Shown here in pieces: positions 9,052 to 28,993 of a stretch of 35,969 nucleotides of DNA. Origin of the DNA: Kofleriaceae bacterium (GTDB lineage: Bacteria; Myxococcota_A; Polyangia; Haliangiales; Haliangiaceae); contig JAGPCO010000037.1 in the NCBI GenBank assembly GCA_018058095.1, positions 20,649 through 56,617 of the forward strand, given 5' to 3'. Made by a program: the position numbers and the translations under genes. The notes below the pieces were generated by a model. It searched no databases. It was not told the origin of the DNA and saw nothing but the letters and a program-made list of their open reading frames with translations. How positions within the stretch are numbered: position 1 is the stretch's first letter; every line of letters begins with the position of its first letter.

Positions 9052-10857
<1,806 letters not shown>

Positions 10858-10943
10858 CGCGGAGACGGCGATGTAGCACAACGCCGCTGGACGCGACACC
10901 TGCCGGGCGCCACCGGCGTGTGCACCTCGGCGGCCGGGCTGGC

Positions 10944-11123
<180 letters not shown>

Positions 11124-11132
11124 GGCGCCGTG

Positions 11133-11161
11133 ACCATACGTGGCCATATGCCGGTGGTCAA
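11133..11161 (-). promoter_or_regulatory. promoter of the ribbon-helix-helix gene
   Basis: TTGACC (11161-11156), 17 nt, TATGGT (11138-11133), then 9 nt to GTG 11123. The position supports GTG 11123 as start and a near-leaderless mRNA. Confidence 0.6.
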
Positions 11162-11245
11162 TCTTCCGTCGAGTGGAGGATCCGCGGGCCTCACGTGGAG
11201 CCGGCCGGCCCGCGTGATCGATCCCCGATCCGGGCCGGCCTCGAC

Positions 11246-11274
11246 TTGCACCGCCCAAGGCGTCGTCGTACTCT
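11246..11274 (+). promoter_or_regulatory. promoter of the lipoprotein-cupin-kinase operon
   Basis: TTGCAC (11246-11251), 17 nt, TACTCT (11269-11274), then 8 nt to ATG 11283. No Shine-Dalgarno fits in the remaining leader. Confidence 0.55.
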
Positions 11275-11282
11275 CCGCCTGC

Positions 11283-12044
11283 ATGTCGAACCGTTCGAAA
11301 CTGCGTGAGGTTTTCCACTTCGTCGGCCGCGCTGGCGGGTTGGTCGGGCTGGCCGGGGTCGTGCTGGTCGCCGGCGCCTGCAAGGGCAAGAAGGACGTGG
11401 CGGCGCCCAAGGGCGGCGACACCTCGGCCTCGGTGCCCAAGGTCGATCCCACGCTGTGCGAGACGGCGGGCAAGAACGTCGTCACCTACGACCTCAACCG
11501 CGACAACCAGCCCGACGTCTGGCGGCTGTACAAGACCGAGGAAGAGGGCGGCACCAAGATCGAGTTCATGACCTGCAAGCAGGTCGACTTCGATCACGAC
11601 GGGCGCAAGGACTGGGTGGTCGGGTTCAACCGCAAGGGGACCCGCCTGTTCGAGAAGGTCGACATGGACTACGACGACAAGTTCGACCTGTCGGCCATCT
11701 TCGACCCCAAGACCGGGCTGATCGCCGAGGTCGAGCGCGACCGCGACTTCGACGGCAAGTACGATCTCAAGGAGATCTACGACAGCTCCGGTCAGCTGCA
11801 GTCGGTCCGCCACGACAAGGACGCCGACGGCGAGCCCGATCAGTGGGAGCAGTACAAGGACGGGGTGCTCATCACCATCCTGTTCGACGACAACTTCGAC
11901 GGCAAGGTCGACCGCCGCGAGGAGGTCCCCGGCGCCCGTCCCAAGATCCAGATGCCCGACACCGGGGTGGCCCCGGTCGAGCCGACCGAGGGCGAAGGCG
12001 CCGGCAGCGGCAGCGCCGCCCCGGCCCCCGGCGCCGGCAAGTAG
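11283..12044 (+). CDS. lipoprotein with DxDxDG calcium-binding-type repeats
   Basis: A 253-residue lipoprotein. The lipobox VAGAC gives Cys33, followed by a Lys-rich stretch. The body holds six acidic repeats of the EF-hand/thrombospondin-3 loop type: DLNRDNQPDVW, DFDHDGRKDWV, DMDYDDKFDLS, DRDFDGKYDLK, DKDADGEPDQW and DDNFDGKVDRR. Such loops usually bind Ca2+. The C-terminus is Pro/Gly/Ala-rich. It is the first gene of a tight cluster with a cupin and a receptor-like kinase (9-nt gap to the cupin). A sensor or envelope-structure role is possible but unproven. Confidence 0.85.
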   Translation: MSNRSKLREVFHFVGRAGGLVGLAGVVLVAGACKGKKDVAAPKGGDTSASVPKVDPTLCETAGKNVVTYDLNRDNQPDVWRLYKTEEEGGTKIEFMTCKQVDFDHDGRKDWVVGFNRKGTRLFEKVDMDYDDKFDLSAIFDPKTGLIAEVERDRDFDGKYDLKEIYDSSGQLQSVRHDKDADGEPDQWEQYKDGVLITILFDDNFDGKVDRREEVPGARPKIQMPDTGVAPVEPTEGEGAGSGSAAPAPGAGK

Positions 12045-12053
12045 CAGGGCGGC

Positions 12054-12401
12054 GTGAGCACACGCGTCGACAAGCCCTGGGGCCACGAGCTGATCTGGGC
12101 CCACACCGCGGCCTACGTCGGCAAGATCCTGCACGTCCGCGCCGGCGAGGCGCTGTCGCTGCAGTATCACCGCGTCAAGGACGAGACCATCATGGTCCTG
12201 CGCGGCCGGCTGCAGCTGATCCACTTCGCCGAGGGCGAGGCACCTCGCACCCTCGAGCTGCTGCCGCACCAGCCCTTCCACATCCGCCCGGGCCTGCGCC
12301 ATCGCATGATCGCGCTCGACGACACCGACGTGCTGGAGGTGTCGACCCCGGAGCTCGACGACGTGGTCCGCCTCGAGGACCGCTACGGCCGGACCCCTTG
12401 A
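12054..12401 (+). CDS. cupin, mannose-6-phosphate isomerase type II-like
   Basis: A 115-residue single-cupin protein starting at GTG 12054. The start KPWGHELIWA and the metal site Q37-x-H39...E44 (LQYHRVKDE) with His83 (GLRHRM) are those of the small type II phosphomannose isomerase family. These interconvert mannose-6-P and fructose-6-P or act as sugar-phosphate-binding cupins. It is cytoplasmic. Its TGA overlaps the ATG of the kinase gene (TGATG), which indicates translational coupling. Enzymatic activity cannot be proved from sequence because many stand-alone cupins of this type are uncharacterised. Confidence 0.85.
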   Translation: MSTRVDKPWGHELIWAHTAAYVGKILHVRAGEALSLQYHRVKDETIMVLRGRLQLIHFAEGEAPRTLELLPHQPFHIRPGLRHRMIALDDTDVLEVSTPELDDVVRLEDRYGRTP

Positions 12402-15400
12402 TGGATCGGCCCGCCGCCGCCGCGAGCGACCCGGGTCGAACCAGGCGGTGCCCGACCGCTGCGTGCCGGGTCGCGGCCCTGGCGCTCGGCCTGCTGCTCG
12501 TGCTGGTCGCGCCGCGGCCGGCCGCGGCCGACGGCGCCGGCATCCTGTTCGCGCCGACGTACGCCGACCCCGACCTGCGCGAGGAAGCCGGCGCGCTGTC
12601 GCTCCTGGTGCGCGGCGCCCTCGACGCCGACGGCACCGGCCTGGTCGCGCCGTACGAGCTGGTCCGGCGCGGCGTGGCGCCGAGCCTGGCTCGGGCCCGC
12701 GAGGTGGTGACGGCCGCGAAGGCCCGCTTCCTGGTCGTGTCGGATCTCGATCGGCTCGGCCCCACCCTGCTGGCCTCGGCCCACGTGCTCGACCACACCG
12801 GCTCGGTCGTGGCCAAGATCTCGGCGGTCGCGCCCGAGGGCGCGATCGACGAGCTGGCCGACGAGCTGGCGCGTGCGCTGGCGCCGCCGCTCGGGCTGCG
12901 CGCCGGCAAGATCCCCGACGTCGCCGTCGGCCAGCTCCGGCCCTTCTTCGAGGCCGAGCGCCAGCTGGCGGCGGGGCGACCGGCCGACGCGGCGCGGGCG
13001 CTGACCGGGGGCGAGTCCCTGGTGGCGCTGCGGGTGCCGGCGGCGGCCCAGCTGGCGCGGGTGGTGGCGGCCGACGCCAGCCTGGCCCTGCCCGACCGCG
13101 CCGCCGCCGCCGCCGTGGCCGGCACCCCGCGCGAGGTGTTCCTGCTCACCGGCGCCGACAAGACCCCGGCGGTGCGCGCGCTGCGGGCGCTGGCCCACGT
13201 CGAGCTGGCTGACGCCACCCGGGCCCGGGCCGAGCTGACCGGCATCCTGCTCGATCCCGCCACCGCGCTGGCGCGCGCCGCGCTCGGGCAGCTCGAGCAG
13301 CGCGCCGACCAGCGCGACGCCGCCATCCGCACCCTGCTGGCGTCGACGCCCAGCCCGGCCGCGCTGCGCTGGTTGTCGCGGCTGGCCCCGGGTGCGCTCG
13401 GGCCGGAGCTCGAGCGCGCCGTGCTGGCCGCGGCGGCTCGGACCCCGCAGCGCCGGTTCGTGGCCGCGCTCGGCCTGCGCGCGGCCGAGGCCGGGGTCGA
13501 GGTCGACGCCGCGCTGGCGCTCATCGCCGTGACCGAGCTCGACAAGACCGAGCGGGCCCGCCTGGGCAGCGCGCTCGGCCGGGCCAGCGGCGCCGAGGCC
13601 GACCGCCTGGTGTGTGAGCTGGCGATGGTGCGCGGGGACATCACCGCGGCCCAGGAGGCCGTCGCCCGCCTGGCCCGTTCCGGTGACCCGCGCGCGGCCC
13701 TGTACCGCGGCCGCGTCGCCTGGCAGATCGGCGACCTGGCGGTGGCCGCCGACGAGCTGTCCCACGCCGACGCCCCGCTCGAGGCAGCTCGTGTGCTGCT
13801 GGTCGCCGGCGATCCACGCGGCGCCGCGGCCGCGGTGGCCGGCGCCGGCGCCGATGGCTCGGCCTCGCGCATCGGTCGCCTGGTCAGCGCCGAGGTCGCG
13901 CTGGCCGAGGCACGCCCCGAGGCCGCGGTCGCCGCGCTGCGCGAGGCCGAAGCGCTCGCGCCGGGTTCGCGCGCGGTCCAGGCCCGGCTGGGCGACGCGC
14001 TCGACAAGTCGGGCGACGCCAGCGGCGCGGCCGAGGCGCGCGCGCGTGCGGTCGGCCTGGTCGAGCCGCCGGCCGGCTCGGTGCTGGCGGCGAGCGCGAC
14101 CTCGGCGGCGGTGGCCGGCGCGAGCGCCACGGCCGGCAGCGGCGCCGCGGGCAGCGGCGCGCCCGACGGTGCGGCGGCGGCGGCCGCGGCGCTGGCGGCG
14201 GCCGCCAGCAACCCCGAGCTGCTGCGCGTGCTGACCGACCTCCTCGGCAAGTTCCCGCAGGGCACGTTCATGCGCCAGGGTGTGGTGCTGGCGGCGTACG
14301 GCGGCGCCGACCCGTGGTGGAGCCTGCGCGTGGCCCGGCCCGAGGTCCTCGTCGCGCACCTGAGCAAGGTGCTCAGCGGCGCGCCGTTCGAGGCCCGGCT
14401 GCTCGGGCGTGGCCTGGCCCAGCCCGAGCCGGCCGAGCGGACCCGGCTGGCCGAGCTGGCCAGCGCCAGCAACGCCGCGCTGGTGGTCCTGTACAAGGTG
14501 CGCGCCTCGGGCGCGATCACGCTGCTGATGTTCGACGCCCGCAGCGGCCAGGCCATGGAGGCCAAGGGCCAGGCCGATCCCGACGCGGCCGGCCTGCGCC
14601 AGTGGAATCGCTGGCTGGTCGGGGCCGGCGCCGCCGTGCTCGGCCTGGCGCTGCTGTGGTTCCTCCTCGTCGTCATCCGCGGCCACGGCACCGTCGAGAT
14701 CCGCGTCGGCCTCGACCCGTCGGGCACCGACGAGGTGCTGTGCGTCGAGCTGTCGACCGGCAAGAGCCGGCCGCGCGTCGGTGACCCGCAGCGCTTCGTC
14801 AAGGAGCACCGCGCCGCCGGCCAGAAGGTCAGCAAGAACCGCATCACGCTGGCCAACGCCAGCAGCAAGCTGCGGGCCCAGGCCGGGACCTACTGGGTCC
14901 ACGTCTGGGGTGTGTACCAGCGGGCCGGACAGCCGCGCATGGTCGACGACCTCGCCTTCAGCCAGGAGATCGAGGTGATGCGGCGTGGCAACCACCGGGT
15001 CGACATCGATCTGGCCCCGCGCACCGCCGAGCTGCGCATCAAGGTGGTCGACGCCAAGGCCGGTGGCATCGCGGTGTGGCTCGACGCCTCGACCGTGCGC
15101 CTGTACACCAGCGACGCCGGCGAGGTGACCATGCAGGTCCCGCTCGGGGCGCACACCCTGCACTTCGACGCCGACGGGCTGCACGTCGAGAAGCAGCTCT
15201 CGATCGCCACGCCCAAGGTCGAGCAGCTGGAGGTCAACCTGATCCGCGAGCGACGCCTGGCCGACGTCTCGGGTGGCCTGACCCTGCAGAAGCAGGCGGT
15301 CACCACGTTCGGCCCGGCCCAGCCCAGCGGCCGCAGCTCGCGCGACCTCGAGCTGGCGACGGCGGCGCCGACGGTGCCGGAGCCCGCGGCGCGGCCCACC

Positions 15401-16354
15401 GACGGCGCGTGGGCCAGCCGTGACGAGGTGGCGATCGGCGGCGGCGGCGCGGGCGCGACCCAGGTGCTGCCGGCCGGCGGTCCCGGCATGGCGGTGACGG
15501 CCTCGCCCATCGGCGACCGCGCCGCGCCGATCGCGGGCACCCCCACCCCGGGCGAAGGCAGCCTGCTGCTCGGCCGGTACCGGATCAGCCGCATCCTCGG
15601 CCAGGGCGCGATGGGCGTGGTCTTCCGCGCCACCGACCAGAACCTCGAGCGCGAGGTGGCGGTCAAGGCGATGTCGCGCGACCTGCGCCGCAACCCCGAC
15701 GCCCTGCGCTTCTTCATCGAGGAGGCCAAGGCGCTGGCCCAGCTCAACCACCCGAACATCGTCTCGGTGTTCGACCAGACCCACGACGGCGACGAGACGT
15801 ACCTGATCATGGAGTTCGTCGACGGTCGAACCCTCGACGAGATCCTGCAGGAGCGCGGGCGCCTGCCGGTACCGACCGCGCTGGCGCTGATCGATCAGCT
15901 GTGCGCCGGGCTGGCCTACGTCCACAGCCGTCGGGTCATCCACCGCGACATCAAGCCGGCCAACATCTTCGTGTCGTCGGAGAAGGTGGTGAAGCTGGGT
16001 GACTTCGGCCTGGCCCGGGTCATGCGCGAGCTGTCGATCCGCCGGACCGAGATCCGCGGCACGCCGCTGTACATGGCGCCCGAGCAGATCACCGGCCAGA
16101 ACGTGACCCACCGGGTCGACCTGTACGCGGTCGGCTGCACCCTGTTCGAGCTGGTCACCGGCCGGCCGCCGTTCATCGAGGGCGAGATCCTCATCCACCA
16201 CCTCGCCACCCCGCCGCCGGTGCCGTCGTCGCTCGAGCCAAGCGTGCCGCCCGCGCTCGACGAGCTGATCCTGGCCTGCATCGAGAAGGAGCAGGACGCG
16301 CGGATCGAGTCGGCCGGCGCGATCCGGGATCGCATCCGCGCCATCGCACGCTAG
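12401..16354 (+). CDS. receptor-like Ser/Thr protein kinase with N-terminal exported TPR region and C-terminal kinase domain
   Basis: A 1317-residue protein. The N-terminus has a signal peptide or anchor (VAALALGLLLVLVAPRPAAA, about 23-42). Residues about 45-735 are Ala-rich with TPR-like helices and would lie outside the cytoplasm. A transmembrane helix follows at about 738-758 (GAGAAVLGLALLWFLLVVI). Next comes a beta-rich segment (VDIDLAPRTAELRIKVVD and after), a linker, and a kinase domain from about 1058 to the end: GQGAMGVV, VAVK, HRDIKPANI, DFGLA, APEQ. All catalytic residues are present. Most bacterial PknB-type kinases are the other way round, with the kinase first. It is coupled to the cupin gene by a 1-nt overlap. 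The stop TAG is followed directly by CCCGTG repeats. Confidence 0.9.
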   Translation: MDRPAAAASDPGRTRRCPTAACRVAALALGLLLVLVAPRPAAADGAGILFAPTYADPDLREEAGALSLLVRGALDADGTGLVAPYELVRRGVAPSLARAREVVTAAKARFLVVSDLDRLGPTLLASAHVLDHTGSVVAKISAVAPEGAIDELADELARALAPPLGLRAGKIPDVAVGQLRPFFEAERQLAAGRPADAARALTGGESLVALRVPAAAQLARVVAADASLALPDRAAAAAVAGTPREVFLLTGADKTPAVRALRALAHVELADATRARAELTGILLDPATALARAALGQLEQRADQRDAAIRTLLASTPSPAALRWLSRLAPGALGPELERAVLAAAARTPQRRFVAALGLRAAEAGVEVDAALALIAVTELDKTERARLGSALGRASGAEADRLVCELAMVRGDITAAQEAVARLARSGDPRAALYRGRVAWQIGDLAVAADELSHADAPLEAARVLLVAGDPRGAAAAVAGAGADGSASRIGRLVSAEVALAEARPEAAVAALREAEALAPGSRAVQARLGDALDKSGDASGAAEARARAVGLVEPPAGSVLAASATSAAVAGASATAGSGAAGSGAPDGAAAAAAALAAAASNPELLRVLTDLLGKFPQGTFMRQGVVLAAYGGADPWWSLRVARPEVLVAHLSKVLSGAPFEARLLGRGLAQPEPAERTRLAELASASNAALVVLYKVRASGAITLLMFDARSGQAMEAKGQADPDAAGLRQWNRWLVGAGAAVLGLALLWFLLVVIRGHGTVEIRVGLDPSGTDEVLCVELSTGKSRPRVGDPQRFVKEHRAAGQKVSKNRITLANASSKLRAQAGTYWVHVWGVYQRAGQPRMVDDLAFSQEIEVMRRGNHRVDIDLAPRTAELRIKVVDAKAGGIAVWLDASTVRLYTSDAGEVTMQVPLGAHTLHFDADGLHVEKQLSIATPKVEQLEVNLIRERRLADVSGGLTLQKQAVTTFGPAQPSGRSSRDLELATAAPTVPEPAARPTDGAWASRDEVAIGGGGAGATQVLPAGGPGMAVTASPIGDRAAPIAGTPTPGEGSLLLGRYRISRILGQGAMGVVFRATDQNLEREVAVKAMSRDLRRNPDALRFFIEEAKALAQLNHPNIVSVFDQTHDGDETYLIMEFVDGRTLDEILQERGRLPVPTALALIDQLCAGLAYVHSRRVIHRDIKPANIFVSSEKVVKLGDFGLARVMRELSIRRTEIRGTPLYMAPEQITGQNVTHRVDLYAVGCTLFELVTGRPPFIEGEILIHHLATPPPVPSSLEPSVPPALDELILACIEKEQDARIESAGAIRDRIRAIAR

Positions 16355-16396
16355 CCCGTGCCCGTGCCCGTGCCCGTGCCCGTGCCCGTGCCCGTG
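16355..16396. repeat. CCCGTG hexanucleotide repeat, 7 copies
   Basis: Seven perfect CCCGTG units follow the kinase TAG immediately and end in CCCGATCG. The gap lies between convergent genes. A sister array of four units sits at 19900-19923 in the opposite orientation, also ending in CCCGATCG. Confidence 0.9.
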
Positions 16397-16420
16397 CCCG
16401 ATCGGACGCAGGTCATGGCG

Positions 16421-19400
16421 CTAGCGCGCGCGCAGGCGCTGGCCGAGCGCCTGGCACACGGCCGGGCCGAGGCCGGGCACGTCGTCGAGCAGCTCGGCGA
16501 AGGCCACCCGCTCGAGGTGAGCGAGGCGGCCGGGGCCGGCGGCGCGGATCGCGCACGCCCATGGCCGTGGCGCCACCAGCGCCAGCTCGTCGACGACGTC
16601 GCCCGGGCCCCAGCGCCGACCATCGTCGCCGACCAGGGCGCCGTCGCCCACGATCAACAGGGCGTCGATGACCTCGCCGCTGGCCACCACCAGCGCGCCC
16701 GGTTCGAGTTCGGACCAGGTCACGGCGGCGGCGAGGTCGGCCAGCTGCCGGCTGGTGAGCGCTGACAGCAGCGGCACCTTGCCCAGCACGACCAGCGTCT
16801 CGATCCGGGTGGGCATGTCGTCGACGCCCTCATCATCGGTCACGCTCAGGCGGCGCAGCAAGGCCTCGGGGCCAGCCAGCTCGGCGGCCTGGCGGGCCGC
16901 GCTGGAGATGAGGGCGCGGTGGGCGGCGCGGGTCGCCGGGTCGAGCGCGCCCAGCAGCAGCGCCCGCGCCAGCGGATCCCCCGTCGCCAGCTCGGCGGCG
17001 ATGGCCTGATCGACCTCGACGACCCGGGCCGAGCCTCCACCGAGCAGCGCGGCGGTGGCGGCCAGGCGGGTCGGACGCAGGCTGCCGGCGATGACCTCGA
17101 GCGCCCGGGCTCGGGTCCTGGGCTCGACGCTGCGCCGCCAGGCCCGCGCCGCCGTCGCCAGCGCGGTGGCGCCGGTGCGGGCCGACCACAGCAGGATCAC
17201 GGTGTAGGCGATCTCGTCGGCGCGCTCGTGCAGGCGGCGCGGCAACCATGGTCGTCCCAGCGTCGCCAGCGCGGTGTGGTGGGCGCGCGCCTGCGCCAGC
17301 GCCGCGGCCTCGCGATCGATGAGGGCGTCGAGGTCGCCGCGGGTGACCGGCAGCTCGGCCAGCAGGCTGGCGGCGTGATCGCGGGCGGCGCGGCGGCCGT
17401 AGCTGGCGGTGGCCAGGAGCGGCCCGACCGCGGCCCGGCCGAGAGCGCGTACGGCCTGCCCCGCCGCCAGCCGCACCTCGTCGGCGCGGGCGCCGAGGGC
17501 GGCGCCGACCCGCGCCACCGTGGCCGGCTCGATGACCTGCCCGCGCGCCGCCAGCGCCGCCACCACCATCAGCGCGGCCGCCTGTTCTCCGGCCGAGGCG
17601 GTGGCCTCGGGGTCGAGCCACGCGTCGGCCACCGCCAGCAGCTCGGCCCGCAGCAGCGCCAGCTCGGCCCGCGCCGCCACGTCGACCACGGCGCCCCCGT
17701 CGCCGGACGCCGGGTCGCGGCCGGGGACGTGGCCGAGCTCGGCGCACAGCGCGACCAGGGCGCCGGCGTGGGTCTCGTCGTCGCCGCGGCGCCGGCGCAG
17801 CGCCCGCACCAGCAGGCGGGCCAGGCCGCGCCCGGCCTCGGTGCGCCCGCGCCGGCGCAGCTCGACCACCAGCTCGCGCAACACCACCACCCGCGCCGCC
17901 TGCGTCGGCGCGCGCAGGCCGTCGTCGAGGTCGGCCGCGAGGTCGTCGGCGTCGTCACCACCGGCGCGGGCGGCGGCGATCGCCCACGCCTCCGCCAGCT
18001 CGACCGACCCCGCCGGCGCCTCGGCGCCAGGCCCCGCCGGCGCCCCGGCGCCCAGGCGCGCCGCCACCAGCCCCGCCACCCGGATCACCTCCTCGCCGAC
18101 CCGGGCCGGCCAGGCCTCGAGCCGCGCGGCCCAGCCCGGGCCCAGGCCAGTCGCCGGCGCGGAGGCGCCGACGGTGAGCACGGTGGTGGCCGCGCTCGCC
18201 AGCGCCAGCACCATCGCCGGATCCGTGGCCGGCGCCTCGAGCAGCCCGGCCAGAGCGCGCACCAGGGCCGGGCCGGCGTCGAAGCCACGCTGGCCGTGGA
18301 TGGCCGCCAGCGCCGCGGCAGCACGATCGGGCGCCGGCCCATCGAGCTCACGCAGCAGCAGGCCGAGCGTGCGCCGATCGGCCGCCACCACCGGCGCCGC
18401 CGCCGCGCTGGTCGTGACCTGCGCCACCGCCAGCGCCGGCAGGCGTCGCCCGAGCCGGACCGCCCAGGCCCACCAGCCGGCGGCGAGCACCGCGGTGACG
18501 AGGAACAGCAGGCGCGGGGTCGCGACCAGGAGCGCGGCCAGGCCGGCCCCGAGCATCGCCCCGCCCCGCTTGGCGGCGCCGTCGATGACCGCGCCGACGC
18601 GGCCGCGCTGCGCCTCGGGCAGCAGCGCCAGCGCCATCTTCTCGGCCGGGGTCTCGACCGCGGCGTCGAGGATCTTGGCCTGGCCCTGGGCCACGACCGC
18701 CACCGCCAGCAGCGGGTCGATCGCCAGCGCCAGCGCCGCCAGCACCGCGCCAGCCGGCGCCACCTGCAGCGCGCGCCCGGTGCCGAGCCGGCCGAGCCAG
18801 CGCGGCGCCAGCACCAGCTGCACCACCACCGCGACGACGCCGACGATGGCGCGGCTGCCGGCCAGGAACGCGGCCAGGGCGTCGGCGTCGACGTAGTGAG
18901 CGTGCGCGGCGGCGCCGAGCGCGAAGAACATCAGCGACGCGAACGCGCCACCGAGCGCGACCAGGCCGGCCATCGCCGCCGCCAGCGGGAGGCGCGCGGT
19001 CATCGCCAGCCCGTCGGCCCAGCCGCGCCACGCCAGCCGCCAGCGTCCGGACGTGGCCGCCTGGTGGCGTGCCGGTTCGGCCGCGTCGGTCGCGACGCCA
19101 GCGGCGGGTGCCGACGCGGCGCGCCGCCCCGGGCCGAGCAGGCTGGGCCGGCCGAGCAGCCGGGTCGCGCCCCCGGTCATGGCCGGGACCAGCGCCGCCA
19201 CCCCGAGCAGCAGCAGCGCCGCCGCGCCCAGACAGGCCTCGGCCCCGCCGATGGCGGCCGCGGCCACCGCCAGCCCGCCACCGAGCGCGCCGCCGACGCC
19301 GCCGATCGCGGCCAGGCGGGGGATGGCGCGTGCGCTCTGGCCGGCGTCGAGCTGCTCGCCGAGCTGGACCCAGAACGCGAGCTCGAGCGTGGCCACGACC

Positions 19401-19738
19401 TGCTTGACCAGCACCACGCCGAGGCCGGCGCCGAGCGCGGGCGCGAGGCGGTCGGCCAGCACCAGCCCGACCAGCACGACCACCCCGGCCGCGACCAGGC
19501 CGAGCAGGACCCGGCCGCGATCGCCGCGATCGAGCCAGGCGCCGACCAGCGCCAGCACCGGCACCAGCAGCGCGCTCGACACCAGCAACGCCAGGCCGAA
19601 CTTCCCCGCGCCCCAGCGGGCCAGGAACATGGCGTCGGTCCCGGCGCTGGCCAGCACCGCGGCCGCGCTGACCGCGGCCAGCACGATCGCCGGGGCGCGG
19701 CGCGGCGATGGCGAGGGCGACGACGAGACAGGCACCAC
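16421..19738 (-). CDS. MFS/nucleotide-transporter-like membrane protein fused to HEAT repeats and a cNMP-binding domain
   Basis: A 1105-residue protein. Residues about 1-440 carry about 12 hydrophobic helices of the ATP:ADP antiporter/MFS type. Residues about 440-960 are Ala/Arg-rich helical repeats of HEAT/armadillo type. Residues about 985-1105 form a cyclic-nucleotide-binding-like jelly roll (LGKVPLLSALTSRQLADLA, ELEPGALVVASGE, GPGDVVDELALV). Known Npt1/Npt2-family proteins of myxobacteria share this composite design. The transported molecule is unknown, and the phosphate-binding cassette is divergent, so cNMP binding is uncertain. It starts with GTG 19738; GTG 19735 is equally possible, and TACCAT lies 5-8 nt upstream. 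It converges with the kinase gene. Confidence 0.85.
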   Translation of the reverse strand: MVPVSSSPSPSPRRAPAIVLAAVSAAAVLASAGTDAMFLARWGAGKFGLALLVSSALLVPVLALVGAWLDRGDRGRVLLGLVAAGVVVLVGLVLADRLAPALGAGLGVVLVKQVVATLELAFWVQLGEQLDAGQSARAIPRLAAIGGVGGALGGGLAVAAAAIGGAEACLGAAALLLLGVAALVPAMTGGATRLLGRPSLLGPGRRAASAPAAGVATDAAEPARHQAATSGRWRLAWRGWADGLAMTARLPLAAAMAGLVALGGAFASLMFFALGAAAHAHYVDADALAAFLAGSRAIVGVVAVVVQLVLAPRWLGRLGTGRALQVAPAGAVLAALALAIDPLLAVAVVAQGQAKILDAAVETPAEKMALALLPEAQRGRVGAVIDGAAKRGGAMLGAGLAALLVATPRLLFLVTAVLAAGWWAWAVRLGRRLPALAVAQVTTSAAAAPVVAADRRTLGLLLRELDGPAPDRAAAALAAIHGQRGFDAGPALVRALAGLLEAPATDPAMVLALASAATTVLTVGASAPATGLGPGWAARLEAWPARVGEEVIRVAGLVAARLGAGAPAGPGAEAPAGSVELAEAWAIAAARAGGDDADDLAADLDDGLRAPTQAARVVVLRELVVELRRRGRTEAGRGLARLLVRALRRRRGDDETHAGALVALCAELGHVPGRDPASGDGGAVVDVAARAELALLRAELLAVADAWLDPEATASAGEQAAALMVVAALAARGQVIEPATVARVGAALGARADEVRLAAGQAVRALGRAAVGPLLATASYGRRAARDHAASLLAELPVTRGDLDALIDREAAALAQARAHHTALATLGRPWLPRRLHERADEIAYTVILLWSARTGATALATAARAWRRSVEPRTRARALEVIAGSLRPTRLAATAALLGGGSARVVEVDQAIAAELATGDPLARALLLGALDPATRAAHRALISSAARQAAELAGPEALLRRLSVTDDEGVDDMPTRIETLVVLGKVPLLSALTSRQLADLAAAVTWSELEPGALVVASGEVIDALLIVGDGALVGDDGRRWGPGDVVDELALVAPRPWACAIRAAGPGRLAHLERVAFAELLDDVPGLGPAVCQALGQRLRAR

Positions 19739-27751: not shown

Positions 27752-28993
<1,242 letters not shown>

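Follow-up and report, generated by a model that had tools for sequence, protein, structure and literature searches.

In bacterial Ser/Thr kinases a kinase-first order is reported as usual in surveys (PMC2176072; PMC11032199), with added domains mostly placed C-terminally except for FHA and CHASE2 (PMC2176072). Cyanobacterial CHASE2 Ser/Thr kinases carry an N-terminal extracytoplasmic sensor before the kinase, built as a CHASE domain followed by three membrane regions (PMC2176072), and planctomycete TPR/WD40 kinases expose periplasmic TPR arrays from single-pass proteins in which the kinase comes first and the WD40 or TPR domains are C-terminal (PMC11032199). Eukaryotic type I receptor Ser/Thr and Tyr kinases are ordered as signal peptide, exported sensor, one helix and cytoplasmic kinase. 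The window analysed here, 35,969 nucleotides from a Kofleriaceae bacterium, encodes a 1317 aa protein predicted to have this last order (12401..16354, +). It shares a sensor-before-kinase arrangement with the CHASE2 kinases, but its sensor is unrelated and comes with a signal peptide and a single helix; assignment as a CHASE2 kinase was rejected, as the Pfam scan gave no CHASE2 match and there is one helix besides the export signal. With the planctomycete kinases it has periplasmic TPRs and a single membrane pass in common, yet its order is the opposite. The likeness to eukaryotic receptors is one of layout only: the kinase is of bacterial PknB type and the exported domains have bacterial envelope folds. 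We interpret the protein as a single-pass, receptor-type, envelope-sensing Ser/Thr kinase activated by PknB-like dimerisation, at a probability of about 0.62. The domain order and its conservation, the intact catalytic residues and the single-clade descent of the whole family are the parts of this reading that are demonstrated or strongly predicted.

The open reading frame runs from an ATG at 12401 to a stop at 16352-16354 and is assigned from its Pfam Pkinase match (2.3e-57) and its relatives. By hydropathy the protein has two strongly hydrophobic stretches and no more, at residues 19-39 and 741-761. The former is the core of a predicted signal peptide (residues 1-43; 12401..12529, +), preceded by Arg residues and followed by a signal-peptidase-like site, A41-A42-A43/D44, with cleavage likely after A41-A42-A43. 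The latter is a predicted single transmembrane helix (14621..14683, +) whose C-terminal end carries Arg760, invariant in 11 aligned relatives. Both elements were called from hydropathy and conservation. Because the kinase must face ATP, the orientation is fixed with the kinase inside, and the invariant Arg at the predicted cytoplasmic end of the helix was counted for the same orientation. In four aligned relatives with 36-43% identity a hydrophobic export signal again opens the protein, a single helix occupies the equivalent position and the kinase is C-terminal, so the layout is beyond chance. Prediction and conservation thus give a receptor-type (type I) arrangement of export signal, exported domain, one helix and cytoplasmic kinase. 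The kinase gene and its convergent neighbour are separated by a perfect hexamer array (GCCCGT, 7.8 copies; 16354-16400) that follows the kinase stop immediately; RNA folding of this stretch does not clearly surpass the expectation for its composition. The convergent gene (16421-19738, -) has by eye a transporter-like hydrophobic N-terminus; its central region is long, and a cyclic-nucleotide-binding domain lies at the C-terminus (Pfam 3.4e-07).

The exported part was modelled with AlphaFold from 12 aligned sequences (pLDDT 85.8, pTM 0.73). In the model its first domain, residues 43-171 (12527..12913, +), adopts the TolB N-terminal fold, aligning to TolB 3iax_A over 123 residues (Z 14.0, rmsd 2.6). 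A predicted TPR-type alpha solenoid follows, residues 172-552 (12914..14056, +), supported by a weak Pfam TPR_16 match, Foldseek matches to TPR solenoids and the model. Beyond an Ala/Gly/Ser-rich disordered linker, residues 553-602 (14057..14206, +; pLDDT ~25-36), the last exported domain, residues 605-729 (14213..14587, +), adopts the LpoB C-terminal fold in the model and aligns to LpoB 4q6l over 115 residues (Z 11.9, rmsd 2.9). Scanning the exported region in 12 relatives gave no Pfam TolB or LpoB family match, with only TPR above noise; TolB did not match in Pfam even at E 10, and phmmer of the exported region against the PDB returned no match. Since no sequence family backs a TolB or LpoB assignment, the modelled likeness is one of shared fold only. 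The protein was accordingly rejected as a TolB: the N-terminal fold alone is present, there is no Pfam match and a solenoid stands in place of the beta-propeller. It differs from TolB and LpoB further in that its exported domains are membrane-anchored and fused to a kinase. The folds of the two end domains nevertheless lend indirect, model-based support to an envelope-directed role. A literature search on TolB-type kinases found nothing on point.

Between helix and kinase lies a predicted cytoplasmic juxtamembrane beta module of two domains, residues 762-873 and 874-952 (14684..15256, +). Its comparison with the distant family by hhalign is strong (99.5%, E 3.3e-23) and model pLDDT across it is mostly 73-89, within a beta-plus-kinase model that is middling overall (pLDDT 67.5, pTM 0.36). 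No Pfam family reaches its cut-off on the module, and Pfam and PDB profile searches with it gave sub-threshold matches only. The best of these, 9k1u_D (E 0.022), is a fragment annotated as a Ser/Thr protein kinase that resembles the second beta domain, a match too weak for fold assignment. Fold searches with the beta-plus-kinase model were filled by kinases and barely probed the module. An unconserved disordered linker, residues 953-1056 (15257..15568, +; pLDDT mostly <50), connects it to the kinase.

The Hanks-type kinase domain occupies residues 1057-1310 (15569..16330, +) by Pfam and by structural and sequence comparison; the Pfam match spans 1063-1307 in the numbering of a query starting three residues early. 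All catalytic residues are present (K1089, E1108, HRD D1183, DFG D1201, APE E1228), and membership of the Hanks-type Ser/Thr kinases follows from the Pfam score, the full motif set and a PknB Z of 20. PknB is the nearest solved kinase (PDB PknB E ~7e-51). The PknB/StkP-type kinases of NF033483 likewise have the closest kinase domain (match residues 1053-1315) and a single helix in common, but here the order is reversed, with the exported part first and the kinase last, and PASTA is lacking. A PASTA kinase (PknB/Stk1) identity was rejected: NF033483 scores 306.7 bits against a cut-off of 450 with only model positions 2-268 matched, and the Pfam scan of the kinase protein found no PASTA. R1059, L1082 and D1125 correspond by alignment to PknB R10, L33 and D76, which carry the back-to-back dimer contact in PknB; L33D and D76A PknB mutant entries among the fold-search matches agree with this. 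All three positions are conserved in 22/22 family members as against 11/69 other kinases of the genome, which makes PknB-type back-to-back activation of the family kinases a reasonable supposition from sequence. T1216 and T1221, both in the activation segment, do not vary among family members.

How unusual the domain order is can be judged from the organism's own kinome, which holds at least 154 Pkinase matches. A kinome of this size, together with the high G+C, would suit a myxobacterium-like member of the Myxococcota. Among 72 of these, mostly chosen by similarity to this kinase, membrane segments follow the kinase in 54, precede it in 6 and are absent from 12. The contrast with the usual kinase-first order drawn in the earlier note therefore holds, as does its account of an export signal, an exported region of ~690 residues, a single transmembrane helix and a kinase at the C-terminus, which hydropathy, Pfam and relatives all predict. 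Among the six proteins with segments before the kinase, a sizeable exported domain flanked by two hydrophobic segments occurs only here and in L130; the other four comprise three polytopic proteins and one whose sole segment is short and N-terminal. L130 (G000:C69, ~27853-28836) has about 200 residues between its two segments and a C-terminal kinase, and falls outside the family clade. In L119, L129 and L136, also of this genome, the kinase is likewise C-terminal and is preceded by multiple predicted membrane segments; the tree joins L119 with L136 and places L129 elsewhere. With a few such kinases in the same genome and the cyanobacterial CHASE2 precedent, the reversed topology is not unique. 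The earlier description of the exported region as TPR-like stands for the solenoid, but leaves out the TolB-N-like and LpoB-like domains that the model adds, and the two-part beta module was absent from that description.

Searching with the part before the kinase recovered relatives in 13/35 genomes of the same order, and further genomes of the phylum sample match over the helix and beta module only. These distant members have a C-terminal kinase, an extra cytoplasmic TPR stretch after the beta module and an exported part that is short or long. Profile comparison links the long exported parts of the near and distant branches (97.9%, E 4.8e-13), a score that TPRs and an Ala-rich stretch may inflate. 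In the kinase tree, 12 near and 10 distant members form one clade (support 99/99) apart from 69 other genome kinases, and a profile of the distant branch finds many more members in another class. At 25 follow-up loci drawn with the helix and beta profile, some of which coincide with genes of the ten distant members, the helix precedes the beta module in 25/25; the kinase follows it in 24/25 and precedes it in none. The 25th locus is cut by a contig end, and all 24 complete ORFs keep the order of helix and kinase. A whole-kinase scan of genome contigs gave one kinase-only match and none on the exported region, and viral contigs gave no match. The family is apparently undescribed and occurs in several lineages of one bacterial phylum. 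Its patchy distribution in the order means that it is not an essential envelope part. At L072:5235-8141 (G299) a member has the exported part, helix and both beta domains, with no kinase domain in frame or in other frames of at least 250 aa at that locus. This is possibly a kinase-less receptor, and it indicates that a role for the exported part need not involve a kinase. At L054, L055, L056, L057 and L076, in five genomes of a single genus, the receptor kinase has as its neighbour a transmembrane kinase that is kinase-first and belongs to another clade.

In a receptor mechanism, a Sec signal would send the TolB-N-like, TPR and LpoB-like region into the periplasm, and the helix would stop transfer so that the beta module and kinase remain cytoplasmic. 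The exported region may then bind an envelope component, either a protein or a cell-wall partner; TolB- and LpoB-like folds bind such partners elsewhere. Binding would alter the dimer state across the helix, with the beta module serving as a rigid relay or docking platform; in the distant branch it is followed by the extra cytoplasmic TPRs. The kinase domains would pair back to back through R1059, L1082 and D1125 of their N-lobes, as in PknB, and place phosphates on T1216 and/or T1221 of the activation loop; once active, they would phosphorylate cytoplasmic targets.

An alternative is that the N-terminal hydrophobic segment is no working export signal and that the N-terminal region is cytoplasmic. 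The n-region is indeed long (~20 residues) and the hydrophobic core short, but a single remaining helix would place the kinase and the N-terminal region on opposite sides, with the kinase in the ATP-free periplasm; export-signal-like starts are moreover kept in divergent relatives, and the TolB and LpoB folds are periplasmic. We regard this alternative as very improbable. The same low standing is given to the proposal of the earlier note that lipoprotein, cupin and kinase constitute one envelope-sensing signalling unit. The lipoprotein with DxDxD-type repeats (11283-12044, +) and the mannose-6-phosphate-isomerase-type cupin (12054-12401, +) do share the kinase's strand with tight spacing, and in this genome the kinase ATG overlaps the cupin stop (TGATG). 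However, the block that is conserved, in 9/9 relatives' loci, is that of lepA (9052-10899, -), lipoprotein and cupin (window 9052-12401), with the lipoprotein between lepA and cupin. The lipoprotein occurs in 30/35 genomes of the order, most of them without a detected kinase, and in ten other related kinase loci, with several kb of flank read, neither lipoprotein nor cupin is near the kinase. The block's conservation and these ten loci identify the kinase as a local neighbour here rather than part of a conserved unit, and the trio as a conserved unit is largely refuted. No conserved kinase neighbour is common to the genera examined in other genomes.

It is also conceivable, although unlikely, that the main task of the exported part is structural, as a partner of envelope machinery such as Tol-Pal or wall synthesis, and that the kinase is recruited to it; the protein would then regulate envelope assembly instead of sensing outside signals. 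TolB-N and LpoB folds and TPR solenoids are protein-protein interaction modules of the envelope, and the G299 member without a kinase fits such a role, as does the coupling of LpoB-PBP1B with Tol in E. coli (PMC4458516). The patchy distribution speaks against an assembly role, and distant members with very short exported parts still keep the helix, beta module and kinase. Strong conservation of the kinase and of its dimer residues further suggests that the function under conservation is a regulated kinase output.

A broader proposal, which we put at slightly under an even chance, is that this is an undescribed, single-origin family of bacterial type I receptor kinases spanning two or more classes within one phylum. 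One helix and a new cytoplasmic beta module would wire its periplasmic modules, of Tol-Pal and wall-synthesis fold types, to a kinase of PknB type, and Ser/Thr phosphorylation would thereby read the state of the envelope directly. The findings suggest an independent origin, in a bacterial lineage of PknB type, of the receptor order known from animals and plants, with retention across classes. To our knowledge, almost no ligands are known for the kinases of bacteria whose Ser/Thr kinomes are very large. The family described here, well bounded and with an exported part of TolB- and LpoB-like folds that is modelled with confidence, supplies a concrete hypothesis, open to testing, about what a kinase of this sort may sense.
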